24,395 nucleotides of DNA from a virus. This document shows positions 8,153 to 21,317 of the stretch, one piece after another. The DNA lies in the IMG/VR virus record IMGVR_UViG_3300043496_000246, positions 1-24,395 of that record. One strand, 5' to 3'. Each line of letters opens with the position of its first letter. Position 1 is the stretch's first letter. Position numbers and translations under genes: made by a program. Below the pieces are notes generated by a model. The model made no database searches. It was not told the DNA's origin and saw nothing but the letters and a program-made list of their open reading frames with translations.

Positions 8153-9124
8153 GTGAACAAGTTTTACCAATCCGAGCCGGCGGCGCAAGCAGAACAATTG
8201 CAGCCGAAGCCAATCCACGCCTACCGCGAGATATGGCGGCGGATCCGCGACAATGGCTACGATGTCATACCCTTACGAGGCCGCGACGGGCCGTTCCGCG
8301 GCTGGCCTAGCCAACCCAACGACGACGCGGCGATCGCCACCTGGCGCGGCCGGGCCGCCGGCATCCGCATGTTCCACAGCACGGCCTTTGTCATCGACCT
8401 GGACGTGCGCGACTTAGGCGTACGCCAGGCGCTGCTCGGCGCCTTGGCGCGGCGCTGGCCGGACTTCATGGCCGAGTGCCTGCGCCGGACCTCCGGCGGC
8501 ACGACGCTCGCCTTGATCGGGCAGGTGGCGACGGCGCGCAAGCGGCTGTGGACGGCCCGGTTTAAGTCGGGGCCGAAGCCGGAGGATAAGCCGCACCTGG
8601 TCGAGTACTTCGCCGGCAACGACAAACGCTATGTCGCGGTACACGGATTCCACTCGCCGGGCCGGATCTACGGCTACCAGGGGCGATCGATCACCGAGGT
8701 GCCGCTGCGCGATCTGCCGTGGTTTCCCGAAGCGGACATCCCTTTGATGATATCCGAGTGCGAGCGAGTGATGGGTGGATTAGGTCTGGAACAGATCAAG
8801 GTCGTGCAGCCGCATCTGCCGGGCGAGCATATCTACGACCTGAAGCCCGAAGATGTACTGATGCTGTCGGACGGCGAGCGAATTGTGCTCAGCGAGTTGG
8901 AAAAGCGCGCCGGCACCCGTAGAATCAAGGCTTACGCGAATATCTGGGATCCGCAAAGCCGCACCGCGGACCGGGTATTGGTGAATATGTCCGGCGCCGT
9001 TGGCCTAACGCTCTGGGACACCAAAACCGGCGTGTCGCACCGCTGGGCGGCGCTGTCGCCGGCCGATGATGTCGAGTTGCGGCGAATGCTGAACAGCATC
9101 AAGCACCCATGGGAGGAACAGTGA
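8153..9124 (+). CDS. Prim-pol (archaeo-eukaryotic type) DNA primase/polymerase
   Basis: A 323-residue protein starting at GTG 8153 behind GAAAGGAC. Residues 30-84 match the bifunctional primase-polymerase pattern: GYDVIPLRGRDGPFRGWPS, then an IATW helix, then the catalytic acidic motif FVIDLDV with D82 and D84. The second motif is RTSGGTTLAL at 112-121, without the histidine often seen after the Gly-Gly. The third strand region is EYFAGNDKRYVAVHGFHSPG at about 151-170. About 150 residues follow the catalytic core with no recognised motif. The stop overlaps the next start (TGATG), coupling it to the helicase. It should make primers at the phage origin. The missing histidine may mean altered nucleotide handling. 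Confidence 0.85.
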   Translation: MNKFYQSEPAAQAEQLQPKPIHAYREIWRRIRDNGYDVIPLRGRDGPFRGWPSQPNDDAAIATWRGRAAGIRMFHSTAFVIDLDVRDLGVRQALLGALARRWPDFMAECLRRTSGGTTLALIGQVATARKRLWTARFKSGPKPEDKPHLVEYFAGNDKRYVAVHGFHSPGRIYGYQGRSITEVPLRDLPWFPEADIPLMISECERVMGGLGLEQIKVVQPHLPGEHIYDLKPEDVLMLSDGERIVLSELEKRAGTRRIKAYANIWDPQSRTADRVLVNMSGAVGLTLWDTKTGVSHRWAALSPADDVELRRMLNSIKHPWEEQ

Positions 9125-10617
9125 TGGCCAAGGTCTATCCAATGCCGGGCCGGCCGGCCGAGACTGATTCGCTGGAGGTGAAGGTGGCTTGGTTGGTGCG
9201 GACGCACGGGTTCGACGCCAGGGCCGGCCGGGTGGTGATGCTGTACGAGCCGTCGGCCAATTGCTCGATGACGGTGCAGTCGTTCAAGGAGGAGTACGCC
9301 GCCTGGTCCGAGCTTCTGCCGCAGATGGGCAAGCGGGGGCCGATCGCGCCCAAGCTTATACTGGCGACCGACCGCTGGTCGCGCAGCGCCAAACGGCTGT
9401 CGATCGCCGGTGTACGGATGCATCCGGCCGAGGACTTCCCGGTCTATGCCGAAGCCGGGCAGGTGTTCAAGAACACCTATCGCCGGCCGGTGCATGAGCC
9501 GGCCGAGGGCGCCGACTTGCAGCCGTTCCTGGATTTCTTGGACAGGTTCTTGCCGGCCGAAACCGAGCGCAACTTCTGGCTCGACTGGATGGCGCATAAG
9601 TGGCTGTACCCGGCGATCCCCGGCAGCTCGCCCTGGTTCGTGGCCGACAGCGACGGCGGGCCGCTCACCGGCAAGTACGGCACCGGCCGCGGGTTCATGG
9701 CGCGGGTGCTGCACAAGCTCTATGGCGAGGCGTACTGCAAGGCCGAGGACTTCGATATCTTAACGGGAACATCCGCGCAGGCGGTCTACACCGACTGGCA
9801 GGCCAATAATCTCTTGGTCACGGTCGATGAGGCGCATGCCTCGCCGACAGCGCACCGCAAGGGCGAGAAGCGCAGCGTGTACACGGCGCTGAAGCATGTG
9901 CTGGACCCAGCGCCGAAGCGGCGCACGTTCAAGGTGAAGGGGCTGCCGGCGTTCGACGGCATGAGCTTCTGCTCGGTGTGCGTGGCAACCAACCACGTCA
10001 ATGCCGCGGCCATTCCAGCGAACGACCGCAGGGTCACTGTGCTGCGCAACGGTCGCGAAATGACGCCGGCCGAGGCCAAGGCCATGGATGTGTGGATTAA
10101 CGCACCAGGGAGCATGGCTGCGCTGGTGGAGTACCTGGAATCGAGCGACCTCTCCCGGTTCGACATGTTCACGCCAATGAAAACCGCTGCCAAGGATGAG
10201 ATGGCGGACCTCGCCAAGAATGATATCGAGCATGCGCTGGTCGACTTTGCCGCGGATGACGAGCGCGGGTTGGTGTTTCCGAAGATGTTCCTGGAGCGGG
10301 CGCTGCTGGAGTACCTCACGGGCGGCAGCGAGCGCGACGGCGGCAACGCCAGCGCCTGGCGCGCGCAGCTGGCCGGCGCGTTCGATGAGCATTGCGCGGT
10401 GGTGAAACTGGACAGCGGCGACAAGGCCAAGATCCGGGTCAACAAGCAGCGTTACACCCTGTATGCGTTCCGCTCGCGGATGGTGGCGGCGCTTAGGTTG
10501 AATGTGACGGAGCGCAGGGCGCAGACCGAGAAATGGTACCCGGTCGATGACATCCAGACGATCCTCCGCGAGGTCAAAACGGGGGACACGGAGGGGACGG
10601 AGACGGGGGACAGCTAG
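9124..10617 (+). CDS. Replicative helicase, DUF5906 / SF3-like
   Basis: The start is ATG 9124, with GGAGGA 7 bases upstream and overlapping the primase stop. The 497-residue product has the layout of the helicase half of phage primase-helicases. The P-loop region is G183-KYGTG-R189-G, Walker B is NLLVTVDEA at 229-237, a sensor-like ATN lies at 288-290, and an Arg-finger-like NDRR follows at 300-303. The invariant P-loop lysine position holds Arg, as LTGKYGTGRG, which is unusual for an ATPase; other members of the phage branch may share this. The C-terminal tail TGDTEGTETGDS is encoded by the first copies of the GGGGAC repeat that continues downstream. It probably unwinds DNA at the adjacent candidate origin. 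Confidence 0.82.
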   Translation: MAKVYPMPGRPAETDSLEVKVAWLVRTHGFDARAGRVVMLYEPSANCSMTVQSFKEEYAAWSELLPQMGKRGPIAPKLILATDRWSRSAKRLSIAGVRMHPAEDFPVYAEAGQVFKNTYRRPVHEPAEGADLQPFLDFLDRFLPAETERNFWLDWMAHKWLYPAIPGSSPWFVADSDGGPLTGKYGTGRGFMARVLHKLYGEAYCKAEDFDILTGTSAQAVYTDWQANNLLVTVDEAHASPTAHRKGEKRSVYTALKHVLDPAPKRRTFKVKGLPAFDGMSFCSVCVATNHVNAAAIPANDRRVTVLRNGREMTPAEAKAMDVWINAPGSMAALVEYLESSDLSRFDMFTPMKTAAKDEMADLAKNDIEHALVDFAADDERGLVFPKMFLERALLEYLTGGSERDGGNASAWRAQLAGAFDEHCAVVKLDSGDKAKIRVNKQRYTLYAFRSRMVAALRLNVTERRAQTEKWYPVDDIQTILREVKTGDTEGTETGDS

Positions 10618-10650
10618 CGCGACACCCCCAAAAAAGTTCCACGCGCGCTT

Positions 10651-10679
10651 GGGACGGGGGACGGGGGACAGGCCGGGGG
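10651..10679 (+). other. G-quadruplex motif on the plus strand
   Basis: Four G-runs (3, 5, 5 and 5 bases) are separated by loops AC, AC and ACAGGCC, which satisfies the standard G3+ N1-7 quadruplex rule. It sits within the candidate origin, where such motifs can stall or position replication. Whether it folds in vivo is not known. Confidence 0.55.
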
Positions 10680-10817
10680 ACAGCGGAGCCTATTGATAAC
10701 ACTCAATAAAGTTAATGTTGTCCCCTGTCCCCTGTGTTTAGGTATATACATGCGAGAGAAATCGTATTTTTTATATATACAGCACTACCCCCCTTAATTG
10801 GGGGGACAGGGGGACAA

Positions 10818-10850
10818 CCCTGCCGGCTATGCCCCCGGCAGGGTCGATTT
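10818..10850 (+). terminator. Candidate terminator between convergent operons
   Basis: CCCTGCCGG at 10818-10826 pairs with CCGGCAGGG at 10835-10843 around an 8-base loop, followed rightward by TCGATTT. The hairpin lies 200 bases after the helicase stop and 14 bases beyond the stop of the leftward 55-aa gene, where the two operons converge. The U-tract is short, so efficiency is uncertain. Confidence 0.5.
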
Positions 10851-10856
10851 CATAGT

Positions 10857-11024
10857 TTAGATGTCGCAAACTTTGCCGATGATTTGACAGCGGAGCATCT
10901 GCAACTGGCGCTCTGTTGGCGCCGGCGGTTTAGGTTTTGATGCCGGCGAGCTGTATTGCATGGCCATACCCCAAGCCAACACTACGGCGATCAGGGCTGC
11001 GGCGTTGAGCAGGCGCTGTCTCAT
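10857..11024 (-). CDS. Small single-pass membrane protein, 55 aa
   Basis: ATG 11024 overlaps the stop of the upstream HTH gene (ATGA), and the frame runs to TAA at 10857-10859. The product begins MRQRLLNAAALIAVVLAWGM: two positive residues and then about 17 hydrophobic ones. This fits a signal anchor with the N-terminus inside. The rest is Pro-rich (SSPASKPKPPAPTER) and ends with a short segment holding two cysteines (RCQIIGKVCDI). It is the last gene of the leftward accessory operon. It may be a small exported or membrane-tethered protein; no family is recognised. Confidence 0.6.
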   Translation of the reverse strand: MRQRLLNAAALIAVVLAWGMAMQYSSPASKPKPPAPTERQLQMLRCQIIGKVCDI

Positions 11025-11212
11025 TGGCGATGCTCCTCCGGGACGCCGAATTTCTCGTACATGTCCATGAGCCTGGCGACGACTTCGGGCACGTCCGAGC
11101 TACCGTCCGCCATGCGGTAGATGGTTGATCTGCCCATGCCTAGGATTTTATGTGCGGTGCTGATGTTGTACCCCAGGGCTGCCAAGCCCTCGATTAGGCG
11201 TTCCTTGGTCAC
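11021..11212 (-). CDS. Small helix-turn-helix DNA-binding protein, 63 aa
   Basis: Residues 17-37 (NISTAHKILGMGRSTIYRMA) form a helix-turn-helix of the XRE/Cro or resolvase type: a TAHKILG helix, a tight Gly-containing turn, and an STIYRM recognition helix. The remainder is helical (VPEVVARLMDMYEKFG), suitable for dimerisation. Both ends overlap neighbours by ATGA. It is the only visible DNA-binding regulator in the accessory operon, so it is a natural candidate to bind the palindromic operator at 13485-13508. That link is inference only. Confidence 0.75.
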   Translation of the reverse strand: MTKERLIEGLAALGYNISTAHKILGMGRSTIYRMADGSSDVPEVVARLMDMYEKFGVPEEHRQ

Positions 11213-11559: not shown

Positions 11560-11634
11560 GATCTTTCCTGTTCTGTTTTCGGCATGATTGCCGCTCATGC
11601 CGCGGGCACTTGCCCGCGGCATGCACTGCGATCA
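11560..11634 (-). promoter_or_regulatory. Stop-to-start hairpin linker, copy A
   Basis: Read leftward, the element begins in the TGA stop of the 60-aa gene (TGATCG) and runs to the start of the 116-aa gene. A perfect 12-bp stem (11596-11607 with 11612-11623, CATGCCGCGGGC and its complement) has a 4-base loop. It is followed by GCGGCAATCATGCCGAAAAC and a ribosome binding site AACAGGAAAGATC. Compared with copies B and C it has an extra AACAG near the ribosome binding site. There is no U-tract, so it is not an ordinary terminator. Confidence 0.7.
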
Positions 11635-11814
11635 AACCTCTTCGATTGCGATGCTATCGCCAGGGTTTAGCGTCCATTCACCGATCATGCGGATTAGTGC
11701 GTTGCCTATGACGGCGCTTTGATCCTGATCTTCGCGCGCATCGATCCGCTGGCGGTCCAACTCTCCGCCATGGTCACCACGCAACACGGCATAGACGCTC
11801 ATATGGTTTCTCAT
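11632..11814 (-). CDS. Hypothetical protein, 60 aa
   Basis: The frame starts at ATG 11814, 4 bases after the upstream stop. An inner ATG at 11802 would give 56 residues; neither has a strong ribosome binding site (GTGAGAAC or GAGAAACC). The sequence is acidic and polar (RGDHGGELDRQRIDAREDQD), then IGNALIRMIGEWTLNPGDSI. The last 15 residues read like an edge of a beta barrel. No family is recognised. Its stop codon forms the first bases of linker copy A. Confidence 0.5.
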   Translation of the reverse strand: MRNHMSVYAVLRGDHGGELDRQRIDAREDQDQSAVIGNALIRMIGEWTLNPGDSIAIEEV

Positions 11815-12258: not shown

Positions 12259-12334
12259 GTTTCTGATCTTTCCTGTTTTCGGCATGATTGCCGCATATGC
12301 CGTGCGATTGCTCGCACGGCATAAACTGCAATCA
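12259..12334 (-). promoter_or_regulatory. Stop-to-start hairpin linker, copy B
   Basis: The element begins in the TGA stop of the 73-aa gene (TGATTG) and ends at the start of the 64-aa gene. A 12-bp perfect stem (12296-12307 with 12312-12323, TATGCCGTGCGA leftward) is capped by GCAA, a GNRA-type tetraloop. An outer 5-bp GATTG/CAATC pairing encloses it across a 5-by-5 internal loop. The conserved tail GGCAATCATGCCGAAAACAG and GGAAAGATCAGAA follow. Stem differences from copies A and C are compensated on the other arm. Confidence 0.72.
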
Positions 12335-12553
12335 GACGCGTTCAACCGATACGATTTCAGCGGTATAGCCGTAGCGTTGCCATTTGCGTTGTTCGCCTTG
12401 GGCCAGGTCAATGCGGCCGCACCAGGTAACAACCTTTGCGGTTTTGCCGTGTCCCCACACGGCTATTGCGTGGGTGTAGATTCTCTGCGCCGCACTCTTT
12501 CGCGTTCCGATTATTTCGCCATTGTGACGTGCGGCATATTTGAAAGCGGACAT
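12332..12553 (-). CDS. Hypothetical basic protein, 73 aa
   Basis: The start is ATG 12553, preceded by ACAGGAAAGATCAGAAT from linker copy C; a longer in-frame reading crosses the hairpin and is rejected. The protein is basic (KYAARHNGEIIGTRKSAAQR, THAIAVWGHGKTAKVVTWC, GEQRKWQRYGYTAEIV) and predicted to be mostly strands. It may bind nucleic acid. No family is known to me. It lies between two linker copies, so it is a single-gene cassette. Confidence 0.65.
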   Translation of the reverse strand: MSAFKYAARHNGEIIGTRKSAAQRIYTHAIAVWGHGKTAKVVTWCGRIDLAQGEQRKWQRYGYTAEIVSVERV

Positions 12554-12629
12554 ATTCTGATCTTTCCTGTTTTCGGCGTGATTGCCGCATATGCCGCGCG
12601 CTATTCGCGCGCGGCATAAGCTCCAATCA
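12554..12629 (-). promoter_or_regulatory. Stop-to-start hairpin linker, copy C
   Basis: The element begins in the TGA stop of the GP88-like gene (TGATTG) and ends at the start of the 73-aa gene. The 12-bp perfect stem at 12590-12601 and 12607-12618 (TATGCCGCGCGC leftward) has a GAATA loop. The outer GATTG/CAATC pairing and the tail (CAATCACGCCGAAAACAGG) are as in copy B, with one T-to-C change in the tail. Confidence 0.72.
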
Positions 12630-13436
12630 TCCCACCACGAATCCGCTTTGATCTTTTTTGCCCAAACCCTTGGCATAAAGCGCAACCGCGCTTGATGCCG
12701 GGTCAATGTGCCGGACGTCTGTATCGTCGCCATCCACCACGGGGAGTCCGCGAAAGGATTCGCCATTGGCCAGCATGGAATTGACCATTGCGCGATTGCG
12801 GAAAACCACGGCCAATCGCATGCCGGCCGCGATTGCCAAGTCGACTTGTTTCTGAAAATCAGGAACGCCAGAATAGCTAAACGTCAAATCATAGTTTGAT
12901 GGCACGTTTTTGCGGTTGGCGAGCTTGGTATAATCGTAAAATTGAACGTCCGGGAAAGCTTGGATGATTCCATAATTTTCCCATCGCAAGTCACTAGTCC
13001 CGTTCAAGCGAACCAACAAAACGAAACCTTGCTTTGCCGCGCGCTTTTCGAACAAGGCTACTTCCGCCTTGATCATGGCAATGCATTCGTCGCGGAATTG
13101 CAGAAAAAACAGAGTCTTGCGCAAGCGCGACATCTCAACCGATTTCATCGCGCCGCGGCCGGCCGATTTCAGGCAAGGGTCAAAGCACTTTGCCAATGCG
13201 GCATTGGCGCAAACATTGACGCCGGACATGGTATAGGGAGCCAAATAGAGAATTGCGGTTTTGAATCCGAGCTTGTTCCCTTTAATCACCTTGGTTGAAC
13301 CATCAAGGCGAAGCATCGCATCGGGTTTTTGCGAAAACCATTTTGTGTATTTGGGCGATGCGAGAATCGCGTCGCGCGTTTCAGGAGCGATGCGGGAAAG
13401 ATCATAGATGATAGTGGAAGCGGAAAAGGCGGACAT
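12627..13436 (-). CDS. GP88-family (gene product 88) phage protein
   Basis: A 269-residue protein matching the pattern of the phage GP88 family, first named in mycobacteriophages. Visible conserved blocks are SGVNVC-x7-C-x3-C (C76, C84, C88) with the nearby GRG, RLNGTSD at 143-149, FPDVQFYDYTK at 161-171, DLTFSYSG at 183-190, LAVVFR at 208-213, VVDGDDTD at 233-240, HIDP at 243-246 and the C-terminal SGFVV. The alternating strand/helix order suggests a barrel-like enzyme, and the three cysteines may bind metal or a cluster, but the activity is unknown. It is the promoter-proximal gene of the accessory operon, starting behind TTAACAGGAATCG. Confidence 0.82.
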   Translation of the reverse strand: MSAFSASTIIYDLSRIAPETRDAILASPKYTKWFSQKPDAMLRLDGSTKVIKGNKLGFKTAILYLAPYTMSGVNVCANAALAKCFDPCLKSAGRGAMKSVEMSRLRKTLFFLQFRDECIAMIKAEVALFEKRAAKQGFVLLVRLNGTSDLRWENYGIIQAFPDVQFYDYTKLANRKNVPSNYDLTFSYSGVPDFQKQVDLAIAAGMRLAVVFRNRAMVNSMLANGESFRGLPVVDGDDTDVRHIDPASSAVALYAKGLGKKDQSGFVVG

Positions 13437-16914: not shown

Positions 16915-18693
16915 ATGACATCCCAATACCGCCACCGGCGCACATCCACGCCGGCGACACCGTTTCCGACGCTTGAGCCTGGCGAGATCGCGGTCAATAC
17001 TGCGAATAGACAGATCTCCGTTGGTGATGCCGCGACGCCGACGCTCGGCACGCCAAAACCTCTTCTAGCAATTCGCTTCTTTGACATCGCCGCGATCTAT
17101 GCGATCGGCGACATCGTCACCAACGCCGACAAGATCTGGCGCGCCATCGTTGCCAACGGGCCGGGCGCGTTCAATGCCGCCAACTGGGAGCTGGCCGCCT
17201 CGCAGGTGACCATCGCCGCCGACCCGCCGTCCAACGCCGTCGCCGGCAGCATGTGGTGGGACAGCGACAACGGCATGCTCTACGTCCGCTACAACGACGG
17301 CGATTCTTCGCAGTGGGTGCAGGCCACCGCCATGCCGGTGGTCGACACCTCGGCGTTTGTTGCCAAGGCCGGCGATACGATGACGGGCGAATTGATACTC
17401 TCCTACGCCACCAGCCCGACGATAAGTCTGAGGAAACAGGTAGCAGGAACGAACCCGCAGATCAGAGGATACAACGCCAGTAACTTGCCGCGTTGGACCG
17501 TAAACTTCTGCGATGCCGCCGCTGAAGCGGGGAGTAATCAGGGATCCAACTTTCAAATCGGCAGATTTGATGACGCGGGCGGGTTTATCGACGGGCCGCT
17601 GTACATTTCTCGTTCGACCGGATCGGTTTCTGTTTTGACCGACCCGACTATTCCGCTCGGCGTCGCCACCAAACAATACGTCGACGCCCGCGCCGGCGAT
17701 GCGATGGCCTACTCCGGCATGCAGCACAACGGCAGCTTTGAAGTTAGTCAGGAGAACGGCGTAACTGCTGTCAGCGTGACAAGCGCCGCATCTAAATATG
17801 TTTTAGATGGCTGGCTCGGACAGATTTCTGGACCCGGTACTTTATCATTATTCAAGAATGTGAGTTACGTACCACTTGGATACCCTGCATCTTTGGTCAT
17901 GAATGTTACTGTTGCTAACGCCTCGCCTGCTGCTGGTAATTACGCGGTGCTTACACATGCTATCGAAGGCTATCGCATGTCACGATTGCTGTTTGGTACA
18001 GCAAGTGCACGGTCGATAACACTTGGGTTCTGGGTCAACTCATCGCGAACAGGACTGTTAAGCGGTGCTTTACTCAATGGTGCAGCTAACCGTTCATGCA
18101 CATTCTCGTATACAGTAAACGCTGCCAATGTTTGGGAGTATAAGACTGTCACGATTCCAGGCGACATAACGGGTACTTGGGCAAAAGATCACACAGCGGG
18201 TGTATTTCTATCTTTTGCAATGATGGCGGGGTCTACAGTTTGCACAACACCAGGTGTGTGGACTGCTGGTTTGTTTTGGGGCGCACCCGGCACCGTTAAC
18301 TGCTGCGCTACTACATCAGATAACTTTGCTATTAGCGGCCTCGTCGTCCTCCCTGGCACTCAGGCGCCCACCGCCGCGCAGTCGCCGCTGCTGATGCGGC
18401 CGTATGATCAGGAGCTGGCGACGTGTCAGAGATATTATCAAAAGATGGATGTGCCGATAATATATCAAGGCTATGCCGCAGGTGCCGGTGCAGTGGTTTA
18501 CGGTACTATGCCGTACAAGGTGCCGATGCGCTCTGGGCCAACTATCACGTTTCTTGGTGCTACGTACTTTAATGCGAGTGCGCTTGCGGTTTATGGTGTC
18601 CCTCAGCTGACGCATTTTGCTTTTCAATATACCATTTCAGCGGCAGGTGCCGGTTTCTTCAATTCCGGGTTCATCATGGACGCGAGGCTCTGA
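16915..18693 (+). CDS. Tail fibre protein 1 (receptor-binding, modular), 592 aa
   Basis: The start is ATG 16915 behind GAGGG. The N-terminus (TPATPFPTLEPGEIAVNTAN, then ISVGD) matches the tail-fibre N-terminal repeat seen in Mtd-type and other fibres. Residues about 110-140 (GSMWWDSDNGMLYVRYNDG) and the GDTMTG ... TKQYVDA module are shared with fibre 2. From about residue 265 (AMAYSGMQHNGS) to the C-terminus the protein is homologous to fibre 3, including GPF-free tail motifs such as VTIPGD, QAPTAAQSP, RPYDQELATCQRYY and the final DARL. The segment encoded by about 17760-18340 is visibly more AT-rich than its flanks. It should bind a host surface ligand. Confidence 0.82.
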   Translation: MTSQYRHRRTSTPATPFPTLEPGEIAVNTANRQISVGDAATPTLGTPKPLLAIRFFDIAAIYAIGDIVTNADKIWRAIVANGPGAFNAANWELAASQVTIAADPPSNAVAGSMWWDSDNGMLYVRYNDGDSSQWVQATAMPVVDTSAFVAKAGDTMTGELILSYATSPTISLRKQVAGTNPQIRGYNASNLPRWTVNFCDAAAEAGSNQGSNFQIGRFDDAGGFIDGPLYISRSTGSVSVLTDPTIPLGVATKQYVDARAGDAMAYSGMQHNGSFEVSQENGVTAVSVTSAASKYVLDGWLGQISGPGTLSLFKNVSYVPLGYPASLVMNVTVANASPAAGNYAVLTHAIEGYRMSRLLFGTASARSITLGFWVNSSRTGLLSGALLNGAANRSCTFSYTVNAANVWEYKTVTIPGDITGTWAKDHTAGVFLSFAMMAGSTVCTTPGVWTAGLFWGAPGTVNCCATTSDNFAISGLVVLPGTQAPTAAQSPLLMRPYDQELATCQRYYQKMDVPIIYQGYAAGAGAVVYGTMPYKVPMRSGPTITFLGATYFNASALAVYGVPQLTHFAFQYTISAAGAGFFNSGFIMDARL

Positions 18694-20090
18694 TGGGCAT
18701 CAACTTCCCCAACGCCCCCGCGGTCGGCGAGCTGCACCCCACCCCGCCGCAAGCCGGCGTCCCGCAGTATCGCTGGGACGGCGTGGCCTGGGTGGCGCAG
18801 TCGCAGGACCAGCTCGCCTTCGTCAAGCGCACCGGCGATACCATGTCCGGCGCGCTCACCCTGCCGGCCGATCCGGCCGCGGCGTTGCAAGCCGCCACCA
18901 AACAATACGTCGACGCCAAGTCCTCGCTCTACATCAGCGATAATCCTCCCACCCTGCCGCCGGACGGCTCGATGTGGTGGGACAGCGACAATGGCCTGCT
19001 CTACATCCGCTACAACGACGGCGCCGGCCCCTCGCAGTGGGTGCAGGCGGTCGCCACGCCGGCAATTGATAGTTCTGTGTTCGTCAACAAGGCCGGCGAC
19101 ACCATGGGCGGATTGCTGAAACTGTCAGGCAATCCAGTAGCCGCGCTTGATGCTGCGCCGAAGCAGTATGTTGAGGCGTTTAACGGCAGCAGCAACTTTG
19201 CTGCGGGCATGAGCAATGGCGCGATCGTTGCCACAGCAACGGCTGGCGCTCTCACGATTGCTCTCAAGACGGCGGCTCGCGCCGATCCAAGTGTTGCAGA
19301 TCCAGTATATTTCTATTTTCACAGCAACGACGGCGGTTTTGTCCGCGTTGCAGTGACAGCACCGCTGTCGCTTGTCATACCGGCGACCAAGACGCTTGGC
19401 TTTACTAATGGCATTGCCGGGCGCGTTTGGATTACCGCACACAACAATGCCAACACCTCTGTTGTGCTTGGTGTCATCAAATGCTCAGACGTGAATGGCT
19501 ATATTCGTCCGCAAGAAACATTGATGTACGGGACATACGTTCCTGGGAATACTGCAAAATCATTTTACACTGCGGCTCCCATAACAGCCTCGTTCCGATT
19601 TATTGGCTTCTGTGAGTGGGACAACCTAGTCACCGCTGGGACGTGGACGGCACCTGATCGCACTTACTTGTTTCTCCCTGGTATGCCGAAGCCGGGTGAT
19701 GTCGTTCAGAAAGCACAAATTGCATCAGGCAGCCCAACAACAGTGGGTACCACATCGTGGACGACAACTGCGCTTGTGCTAAGCATCATAATGTCAAGCA
19801 GGGCGAATTTGTTGGAGCTATTTGCGTCAGGGGCTATTTCTATTGCTGGGCTAACCTACGGCATAACATCGATCTTTAAGTACGCCACCTCGTCGCCGAT
19901 TGGTAATTCGGCGGTTTCGTATGCAGCCGCAGCGGGAACCGTAGGAACCAACACCAATTACGCACTTGATTTTCCAAATACGGCGACAGCGAATTACACT
20001 GTTGCCCTCTCAAACAACAACAACGTGGCGACGGTCACCTACCCATCTTACGGCAGTGCTGTTTTTGTCGCCAACGAATTGATGGGGTGA
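18693..20090 (+). CDS. Tail fibre protein 2 (modular), 465 aa
   Basis: ATG 18693 shares its A with the fibre 1 stop (TGATG). The N-terminal block (MGINFPNAPAVGELHPTPPQ, then PQYRWDGVAWVA) is shared with fibre 3. Two GDTM ... KQYV modules (residues about 47-75 and 131-160) flank a WWDSDNGLLYIRYNDG module shared with fibre 1. From about residue 165 the sequence is unique in the window: beta-rich, Ala/Thr/Ser-rich and more AT-rich (for example GGFVRVAVTAPLSLVIPATK). It lacks the RPYDQELATCQRYY tail of fibres 1 and 3, so it probably recognises a different ligand or acts as an alternative head. Confidence 0.8.
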   Translation: MGINFPNAPAVGELHPTPPQAGVPQYRWDGVAWVAQSQDQLAFVKRTGDTMSGALTLPADPAAALQAATKQYVDAKSSLYISDNPPTLPPDGSMWWDSDNGLLYIRYNDGAGPSQWVQAVATPAIDSSVFVNKAGDTMGGLLKLSGNPVAALDAAPKQYVEAFNGSSNFAAGMSNGAIVATATAGALTIALKTAARADPSVADPVYFYFHSNDGGFVRVAVTAPLSLVIPATKTLGFTNGIAGRVWITAHNNANTSVVLGVIKCSDVNGYIRPQETLMYGTYVPGNTAKSFYTAAPITASFRFIGFCEWDNLVTAGTWTAPDRTYLFLPGMPKPGDVVQKAQIASGSPTTVGTTSWTTTALVLSIIMSSRANLLELFASGAISIAGLTYGITSIFKYATSSPIGNSAVSYAAAAGTVGTNTNYALDFPNTATANYTVALSNNNNVATVTYPSYGSAVFVANELMG

Positions 20091-20093
20091 ACC

Positions 20094-21317
20094 ATGGGCA
20101 TCAACTTCCCAGCCGCTCCGATCATCGGCGAGCTGTACCCGACCCCGGCTATTGCCGGCATCCCGCAATACAAGTGGGACGGCACCGCCTGGCTGGCGAT
20201 GACCCCAAGCGCGCTGACCTATGTCCAGCGCGGCGGCGATACCATGACCGGGCATCTGGCGCTGCCGACCGCGCCCGCAGCTGCCAATGCCGTGCGCCGC
20301 GACTTTGTCGAGGCTTACGCCGCGCCGTTCGACGCGATGGCCTACAGCGGCATGCAGATCAATGGCAGCATGGATGTCAGCCAGGAACTTGGTGCTGGGA
20401 CTAAGACTGGGAATGGATTTATCTGCGACGGTTGGCAACAGGCGGCTGTTGGAACAGCGGTTATTTCAGGTGGTCGAGCGGCAGGTGGCGGCGTCGTCAA
20501 CATGCAGTTTTCTAATTATTGTTATGTGAATACAACGACGGCTCAGGCATCTATGGGAGCCGGTGATTTTGTCGCTCTTGTGCATAACGGCGAGGGGTAT
20601 CGTTTTGCTCGTTTGAATTGGGGCGCCGCTAATGCGAAGCCGATTACAATCGGCTTTTGGAGTGCTCACAACCCTGTCGGCACATACAGTGGGTCTATTC
20701 GTAACCACGATGGCACTCGATCTTATGTATTCACCTACACTCAGAATGTAGCGACGGTCGCGGAGTACAAAACCGTAACCATTCCAGGTGACACTGCCGG
20801 AACATGGAAGACCGATAACGGAATTGGTCTGACGCTTACGTTTGCGATGGCGTGTGGTGCAACTACTACTGCGCCAGCCGCGAACACTTGGTACGCCGCT
20901 CAATATCTCGCCGCGCCAGGACAGATCAACGGTGTGGCGGCAATTAACAATGCCATGCGTATTTCCGGCGTTGTCATCCTCCCCGGCAGCCAAGCGCCGA
21001 CCGCCGCGCAGTCGCCGATGATCATGCGGCCATATGATCAGGAGTTGGCGACATGTCAGAGGTATTTCAACAAGTTCTTAGGCATGAGCGTTAGCGGATT
21101 TCATTCGTCAGGAGGTTCGTGGATATTTACTATGTATCCTCTTGTACCAACGATGCGCGGTTTGCCAACGCTAACTTACGCAGACATTTCTTATAACAAT
21201 GCGTCCGCACTAACTAACTCTGCCCTTGCTCCTAACATTGCACAATTCAGAGCTACGACTACGGCTCCCGGTAGTGCGGCCGCATCGTTTACTATGTCTT
21301 ATGACGCGAGGTTATGA
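20094..21317 (+). CDS. Tail fibre protein 3 (modular), 407 aa
   Basis: It starts 3 bases after the fibre 2 stop. The N-terminal block (INFPAAPIIGELYPTPAIAG, then PQYKWDGTAWLA) and one GGDTMTGHLALP module are shared with fibre 2. From AMAYSGMQINGSMDVSQELG on it parallels fibre 1: EGYRFARLNWG, ITIGFW, VAEYKTVTIPGD, SQAPTAAQSP, RPYDQELATCQRYF and the final DARL. The intervening loops differ strongly. Thus it combines the head type of fibre 1 with the base of fibre 2. It is a likely receptor-binding protein. Confidence 0.82.
   Translation: MGINFPAAPIIGELYPTPAIAGIPQYKWDGTAWLAMTPSALTYVQRGGDTMTGHLALPTAPAAANAVRRDFVEAYAAPFDAMAYSGMQINGSMDVSQELGAGTKTGNGFICDGWQQAAVGTAVISGGRAAGGGVVNMQFSNYCYVNTTTAQASMGAGDFVALVHNGEGYRFARLNWGAANAKPITIGFWSAHNPVGTYSGSIRNHDGTRSYVFTYTQNVATVAEYKTVTIPGDTAGTWKTDNGIGLTLTFAMACGATTTAPAANTWYAAQYLAAPGQINGVAAINNAMRISGVVILPGSQAPTAAQSPMIMRPYDQELATCQRYFNKFLGMSVSGFHSSGGSWIFTMYPLVPTMRGLPTLTYADISYNNASALTNSALAPNIAQFRATTTAPGSAAASFTMSYDARL

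Follow-up and report, generated by a model that had tools for sequence, protein, structure and literature searches.

The stretch of DNA analysed here (the window) is the entire IMG/VR virus record IMGVR_UViG_3300043496_000246, a linear fragment of 24,395 bases. Besides the genes in Table 1, it encodes a large terminase (detected with PHROGs), tail fibre proteins, a PolA polymerase, a DUF2800/PD-(D/E)XK protein and a SNF2-type helicase. The presence of the terminase, tail fibres and PolA identifies it as a fragment of a tailed phage, not of a satellite. A Pfam TerL_ATPase search across the related contigs described below gave no match, and scans of GTDB genomes detected no relatives.

Table 1. 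Positions of genes and sequence features at and around the iteron site of the window.
Feature	Position	Strand	Remark
Probable PrimPol-type (AEP) primase gene	8153–9124	+	Pfam Prim-Pol PF09250, E 0.0014, just under the cut-off
SF3/DUF5906 helicase gene, proposed origin-binding initiator	9109–10617	+	Pfam DUF5906, E 2.5e-7; likely start codon at 9124
Helicase C-terminal domain, predicted winged-helix topology	10159–10551	+	AF2 models; pLDDT about 78–87 over most of the domain
Iteron 1, GGGGACA	10582–10588	+	within the helicase gene
Iteron 2, GGGGACG	10593–10599	+	within the helicase gene; sole copy not changed in concert relative to L003
Iteron 3, GGGGACA	10606–10612	+	within the helicase gene
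AAAAAAGTTCC element, not itself an iteron	10630–10640	+	conserved in 7/9 closest genomes
Iteron 4, GGGGACG	10657–10663	+	
Iteron 5, GGGGACA	10664–10670	+	
Iteron 6, GGGGACA	10676–10682	+	
Reverse doublet, iterons 7 and 8	10719–10732	-	adjoins the AT core on the left; layout position kept in relatives
AT-rich core, probable melting site	10733–10799	.	67% AT, compared with 40% overall
ACTACCCCCCTTAATT, edge of the AT core	10784–10799	.	found by eye; TACCC-like motif recurs in most relatives
Iteron 9, GGGGACA	10802–10808	+	right of the AT core
Iteron 10, GGGGACA	10810–10816	+	right of the AT core
Hairpin ACCCTGCCGG/CCGGCAGGGT	10817–10844	.	possible terminator between convergent operons
Small HTH protein gene	11021–11212	-	Pfam HTH_8

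Exact copies of GGGGAC cluster within 235 bp (10582–10816), eight of them direct and two inverted. An earlier sequence-only reading of this region had counted at least nine direct copies, but the ninth requires the truncated TGGGAC at 10650; its two inverted copies are present, at 10720 and 10727 on the minus strand. Outside the cluster, the word occurs just twice in the contig (6146 and 12451, both on the minus strand). The total of 12 equals the expectation from composition (12.0), and the signal therefore lies in the clustering and not in the total. GGGGACA occurs eight times in 450 bp around the helicase stop, whereas the commonest 7-mer reached at most three copies in 300 dinucleotide shuffles. 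As the sequence-only reading had it, the iterons run into the helicase gene, where they encode its tail up to the stop, KTGDTEGTETGDS.

The AT-rich block said to be bounded by GTATATA and its complement was also found, with the two motifs at 10742 and near 10774. Nearest-neighbour stability over 50 bp reaches its minimum for the entire contig inside this core (approximately 10737–10786). A 16-base inverted repeat pairing 10717–10732 with 10802–10818 held up in part: the pairing exists, but it is imperfect, consisting of 11-nt and 9-nt perfect matches in different registers. Its left arm carries two words 7 nt apart and its right arm two words 8 nt apart, and its outer AAC is absent from the closest relative, L003. 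Because this outer end is not kept, the structure is best seen as two iteron pairs in opposite orientation.

A search of the iteron site against Rfam gave no match. The AAAAAGTTCC element near the iterons (10630–10640) is a possible priming or factor site. When used as bait, it recovered no new candidate origins beyond the known ones, save an uncertain one in another viral contig (L083:3640-3960), where AAAAAAGTTCCACCGCGC lies beside five GTTGCA-type repeats, perhaps another origin of the same kind.

Elsewhere in the window, a 70-nt element with a strong hairpin is present in three copies (61–100% alike; 11568–11637, 12268–12337 and 12562–12631) at intergenic positions in the minus-strand operon. 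L003, L016 and L036 carry related copies, and the element has no Rfam match. Several tail fibre-like genes (16915–21317) contain repeated blocks common to L003 but out of order, which suggests shuffling of receptor-binding modules.

Layout and iteron words in related phages

Relatives were collected by scanning IMG/VR with the helicase, which gave one at 92% identity (L003), followed by groups at 56–68% and 32–43%. Attention had been drawn to relatives that keep the genes and lack the repeats as the case that would count against an origin. Among 15 distinct relatives, the same layout is retained directly after the orthologous helicase gene, nearly every phage having its own word; no clear repeat was found in four more distant relatives (L034, L038, L040, L042). 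Forward copies lead out of the helicase gene; next come a doublet in reverse orientation (one copy in some phages) and the AT core, after which usually one to three more forward copies follow, the arrangement in L024 being more mixed. In 15/15 phages tested, no 50 bp of the DNA examined is less stable than the AT core.

Each cluster is built from one word of 7–9 bases that is mostly private to its phage, with about 14 words in all: GGGGACA (window), GTGGACA (L003), GGGCCAC (L014), AGGCCAC (L015), TGACCCA (L016, L022), GGGCTCA (L017), GGTCCAC (L018), GGGTCCA (the near-identical phages L019–L021), GAGGGCA (L023), CGTGTCA (L024), GGTCTCA (L033, L035), TTGTGTC (L036), TTGGGAT (L037) and GTGGGCA (L041). 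For L033 and L036, the word count by itself is only marginally above shuffles, and the argument rests on layout. Private repeats also follow more distant SF3 helicase genes in cyanophages, an E. coli prophage and two plasmids, while four database phages showed no clear repeats after the helicase gene.

The step separating the window from L003 was examined base by base. In the iteron region, 62/364 aligned bases differ. The second base of the word shows the same G-to-T change in 9/10 copies, compared with 2/60 changes at the other word positions (binomial p 6e-11, if copies change independently at the background rate; Fisher p 8e-9). Two of these changes fall inside the helicase gene, where TGD becomes TVD in the C-terminal tail. 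Since the peptide is altered, selection there appears to act on the DNA word rather than on the protein. The concerted change itself could result from selection by a changed reader, or from gene conversion among the copies.

Relatives from the same metagenome always differed in iteron word, in a small set (L014/L021/L022; L016/L019; L023/L036); different words within one metagenome are what incompatibility would predict. One 95 kb contig, IMGVR_UViG_3300021082_000020 (L021, L022), carries two related replication modules approximately 47 kb apart with different words, and represents either tandem prophages or a chimeric assembly.

Alternative roles of the repeats and exchange of the helicase gene

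The proposal of a phage origin at this site is supported by its layout, its position and the comparison with relatives. GC skew, which had been suggested as a check, did not agree: neither the window nor the 39.8 kb L003 contig has a negative-to-positive turn at the site. In the L003 contig, the cumulative skew has its minimum near 20 kb and a local maximum near 30 kb, with the candidate origin near 26.9 kb. The skew seems to follow gene direction.

We consider it improbable that the repeats serve incompatibility or copy control, with the main origin located beyond this fragment. Such an arrangement is known from P4, where crr lies directly 3' of the alpha gene and the annotated ori, with the same word, lies elsewhere; the window is itself a fragment. 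However, the word forms no further cluster in the 24.4 kb window, nor does the L003 word in the surrounding 21.5 kb, and the melting-prone core sits at the iteron site itself.

Comparison of the window with L036 bears on which protein reads the word. At the DNA level, the two are 80–100% identical across most of the primase gene and upstream of it, and 100% identical over 1 kb downstream. In between, the helicase gene and iterons are 30–70% identical, the helicase proteins are approximately 40% identical, and the words are unrelated. The same pattern was seen independently in L003 and L016 (primase 93–100%, downstream 88–96%, helicase and iterons different). The converse was seen between the window and L003, in which the helicase-iteron cassette is 81–97% identical and the downstream DNA mostly unalignable. 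Judged from these alignments, the helicase gene and the putative origin are exchanged as one cassette. These patterns imply that the helicase and iterons are co-inherited, and that the word is set by neither the primase nor the HTH protein.

On this evidence, it is very unlikely that the small HTH protein reads the repeats as an operator or silencer, even though a gene for a DNA-binding protein lies approximately 200 bp from them in most relatives. The HTH protein of L036 is identical to that of the window, yet its word is TTGTGTC instead of GGGGACA. The recognition helix (GRSTIYRM) is unchanged among phages with different words, which argues that the HTH protein is not the word reader. Reading by the primase or by a host protein is likewise very unlikely. 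The primase gene is adjacent and its product may need a start site, but the primase proteins of the window and L036 are 91% identical despite their unrelated iterons, which points to the helicase, and not the primase, as the likely iteron binder. Nor would one expect, if a host protein were the reader, each phage to have a private word that moves with the helicase gene. A dispersed REP-like element, a terminator array or chance G-rich sequence would account for the short G-rich repeats and the hairpin at 10817–10844, but can practically be dismissed, because the GGGGAC word is confined to the site, Rfam contains no match, and the layout stays the same although its letters differ between phages.

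The helicase and its C-terminal domain

By sequence profile and fold, the helicase matches the SF3 hexameric helicase region of phage NrS-1 (PDB 6K9C); the fold match of its model to SaPI5 7OLA is weak (E 0.07). The catalytic lysine of the Walker A motif is replaced by arginine (GxGRG or GxGRS) in 17/17 family helicases checked, including that of the window (P0001, residues 188–196; 9670–9696), whereas it is retained in NrS-1 (PMC7102993); this replacement weighs against the origin-helicase reading. In AF2 models, the elements of the C-terminal domain follow the order alpha-beta-alpha-alpha-beta-beta, as in a winged helix, with an H3-like helix at about residues 414–428. A fold search of this domain against the PDB returned nothing significant, the P4 winged helix included (1KA8, E 1.9).

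Among the nine closest phages, word distance tracks the C-terminal domain over and above the core of the helicase (partial Mantel r 0.62, p 0.0015), and shows no association with the N-terminal domain (r 0.01). For the 15-genome set, the effect beyond the core was not significant (partial r 0.16, p 0.11). As the C-terminal domain and the iterons are neighbours, the signal could be plain linkage. The H3-like helix alone did no better than the rest of the domain (partial r 0.13, p 0.22), which leaves a residue-base code as a lead and no more. In this helix, S415N and A419G separate the window from L003, alongside the one-base difference in their words; WxGM accompanied GGCC words and WxGQ accompanied GTCC words. 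These associations come from few sequences and were chosen after being seen. Tentatively, a few C-terminal residues might set the address of interchangeable origin cassettes through a readable residue-to-base code; attack directed at the origin, or incompatibility between phages infecting the same cell, would have diversified the cassettes.

Proposed mechanism and comparison with known systems

Taken together, 10582–10816 is very probably a replication origin, at which the phage's own SF3 helicase would bind the GGGGACA iterons, melt the core and load itself; helicase and iterons would form one cassette, with the word as its private address. What the sequences show is the clustering of the repeats, their layout and the instability of the core, together with the concerted change and the cassette exchange, which tie the word to the helicase; iteron binding, core melting, helicase loading, priming and origin activity are inferred. 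In line with the account known for SaPI Rep and P4 alpha, we propose that the helicase binds the iterons through its winged-helix-like C-terminal domain and assembles to either side of the AT-rich core. It would then melt the core and load itself to act as the replicative helicase, after which synthesis would be started by the PrimPol-type primase together with the phage's own DNA polymerase A. The word would change by exchange of the cassette and by concerted change of all copies.

This organisation resembles that of PICI origins, in which iterons directly 3' of an SF3-type initiator gene flank an AT-rich region (PMC6092414). In SaPIs, the C-terminal domains of Rep and Cch2 recognise iterons directly downstream of their own genes (PMC7581432). 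The SaPI/PICI pri-rep-ori module shares with the window the placement of iterons immediately 3' of the initiator helicase gene, in two sets with an AT-rich region between them, as well as element-specific words and, in many cases, a separate primase gene (PMC6092414, PMC7581432). Its initiator is a self-loading SF3/AAA+ helicase; for that of the window, DUF5906 and the NrS-1 fold match favour SF3, but the match to SaPI5 is weak and the protein lies far from the SaPI helicases. The elements differ in being satellites, whereas the phage encodes its own PolA, terminase and tail fibres.

In P4, as here, the iterons of crr-ori lie directly 3' of the helicase (alpha) gene, and its word GGTGAACA is one base apart from GGTGGACA in L003. 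P4 alpha has a C-terminal winged-helix origin-binding domain, as summarised in PMC4234260, citing Yeo 2002; the AF2 models here show the same element order, but the match to the P4 structure is not significant. P4 differs in its fused Toprim primase, where the window has a separate gene with a weak AEP Prim-Pol match, and in its separate ori; the 24.4 kb of this incomplete genome contain no further cluster of the word.

Of the solved SF3 helicases, the NrS-1 primase-polymerase is the nearest in both sequence profile and fold (PMC7102993). It differs in being one fused protein and in its Walker A lysine, for which the window family has arginine. The lambdoid O protein is not a helicase, and its iterons lie in the middle of the O gene rather than at and after the end of a helicase gene. 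As here, however, the iterons and AT-rich region overlap the initiator gene, and word and protein constrain each other (PMC7466680). In Vibrio cholerae PLE, initiator and origin likewise covary and are swapped as a module, PLE pairs working only when cognate (PMC8263062); unlike here, the initiator is of the RepA_N type with no helicase, and the iterons are about 30 bp long. From these comparisons, a self-recognising origin of the P4/SaPI type in a PolA-encoding phage appears to be the best reading.

What is added here is this probable origin type in a family of PolA-encoding tailed phages, a fixed layout with many private words, a concerted step of one base, and exchanges in shared backgrounds. 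No paper describing this was found in the literature searched, most subscription journals lying outside its scope. The satellite-type (SaPI/P4) origin, an organisation once described as confined to PICIs, would thus extend to PolA-encoding tailed phages, which offer a phage system for studying how such helicases choose their own origin. The family provides a natural data set, with about 14 words in a single fixed layout, one concerted step of a single base and cassettes cleanly exchanged in shared backgrounds. On it, the old question of how the specificity of an initiator and that of its many binding sites shift jointly can be tested directly. In PLE satellites, selection for origin exchanges is proposed to come from a nuclease aimed at the origin (PMC8263062); by analogy, origin words may be contested in phages as well.
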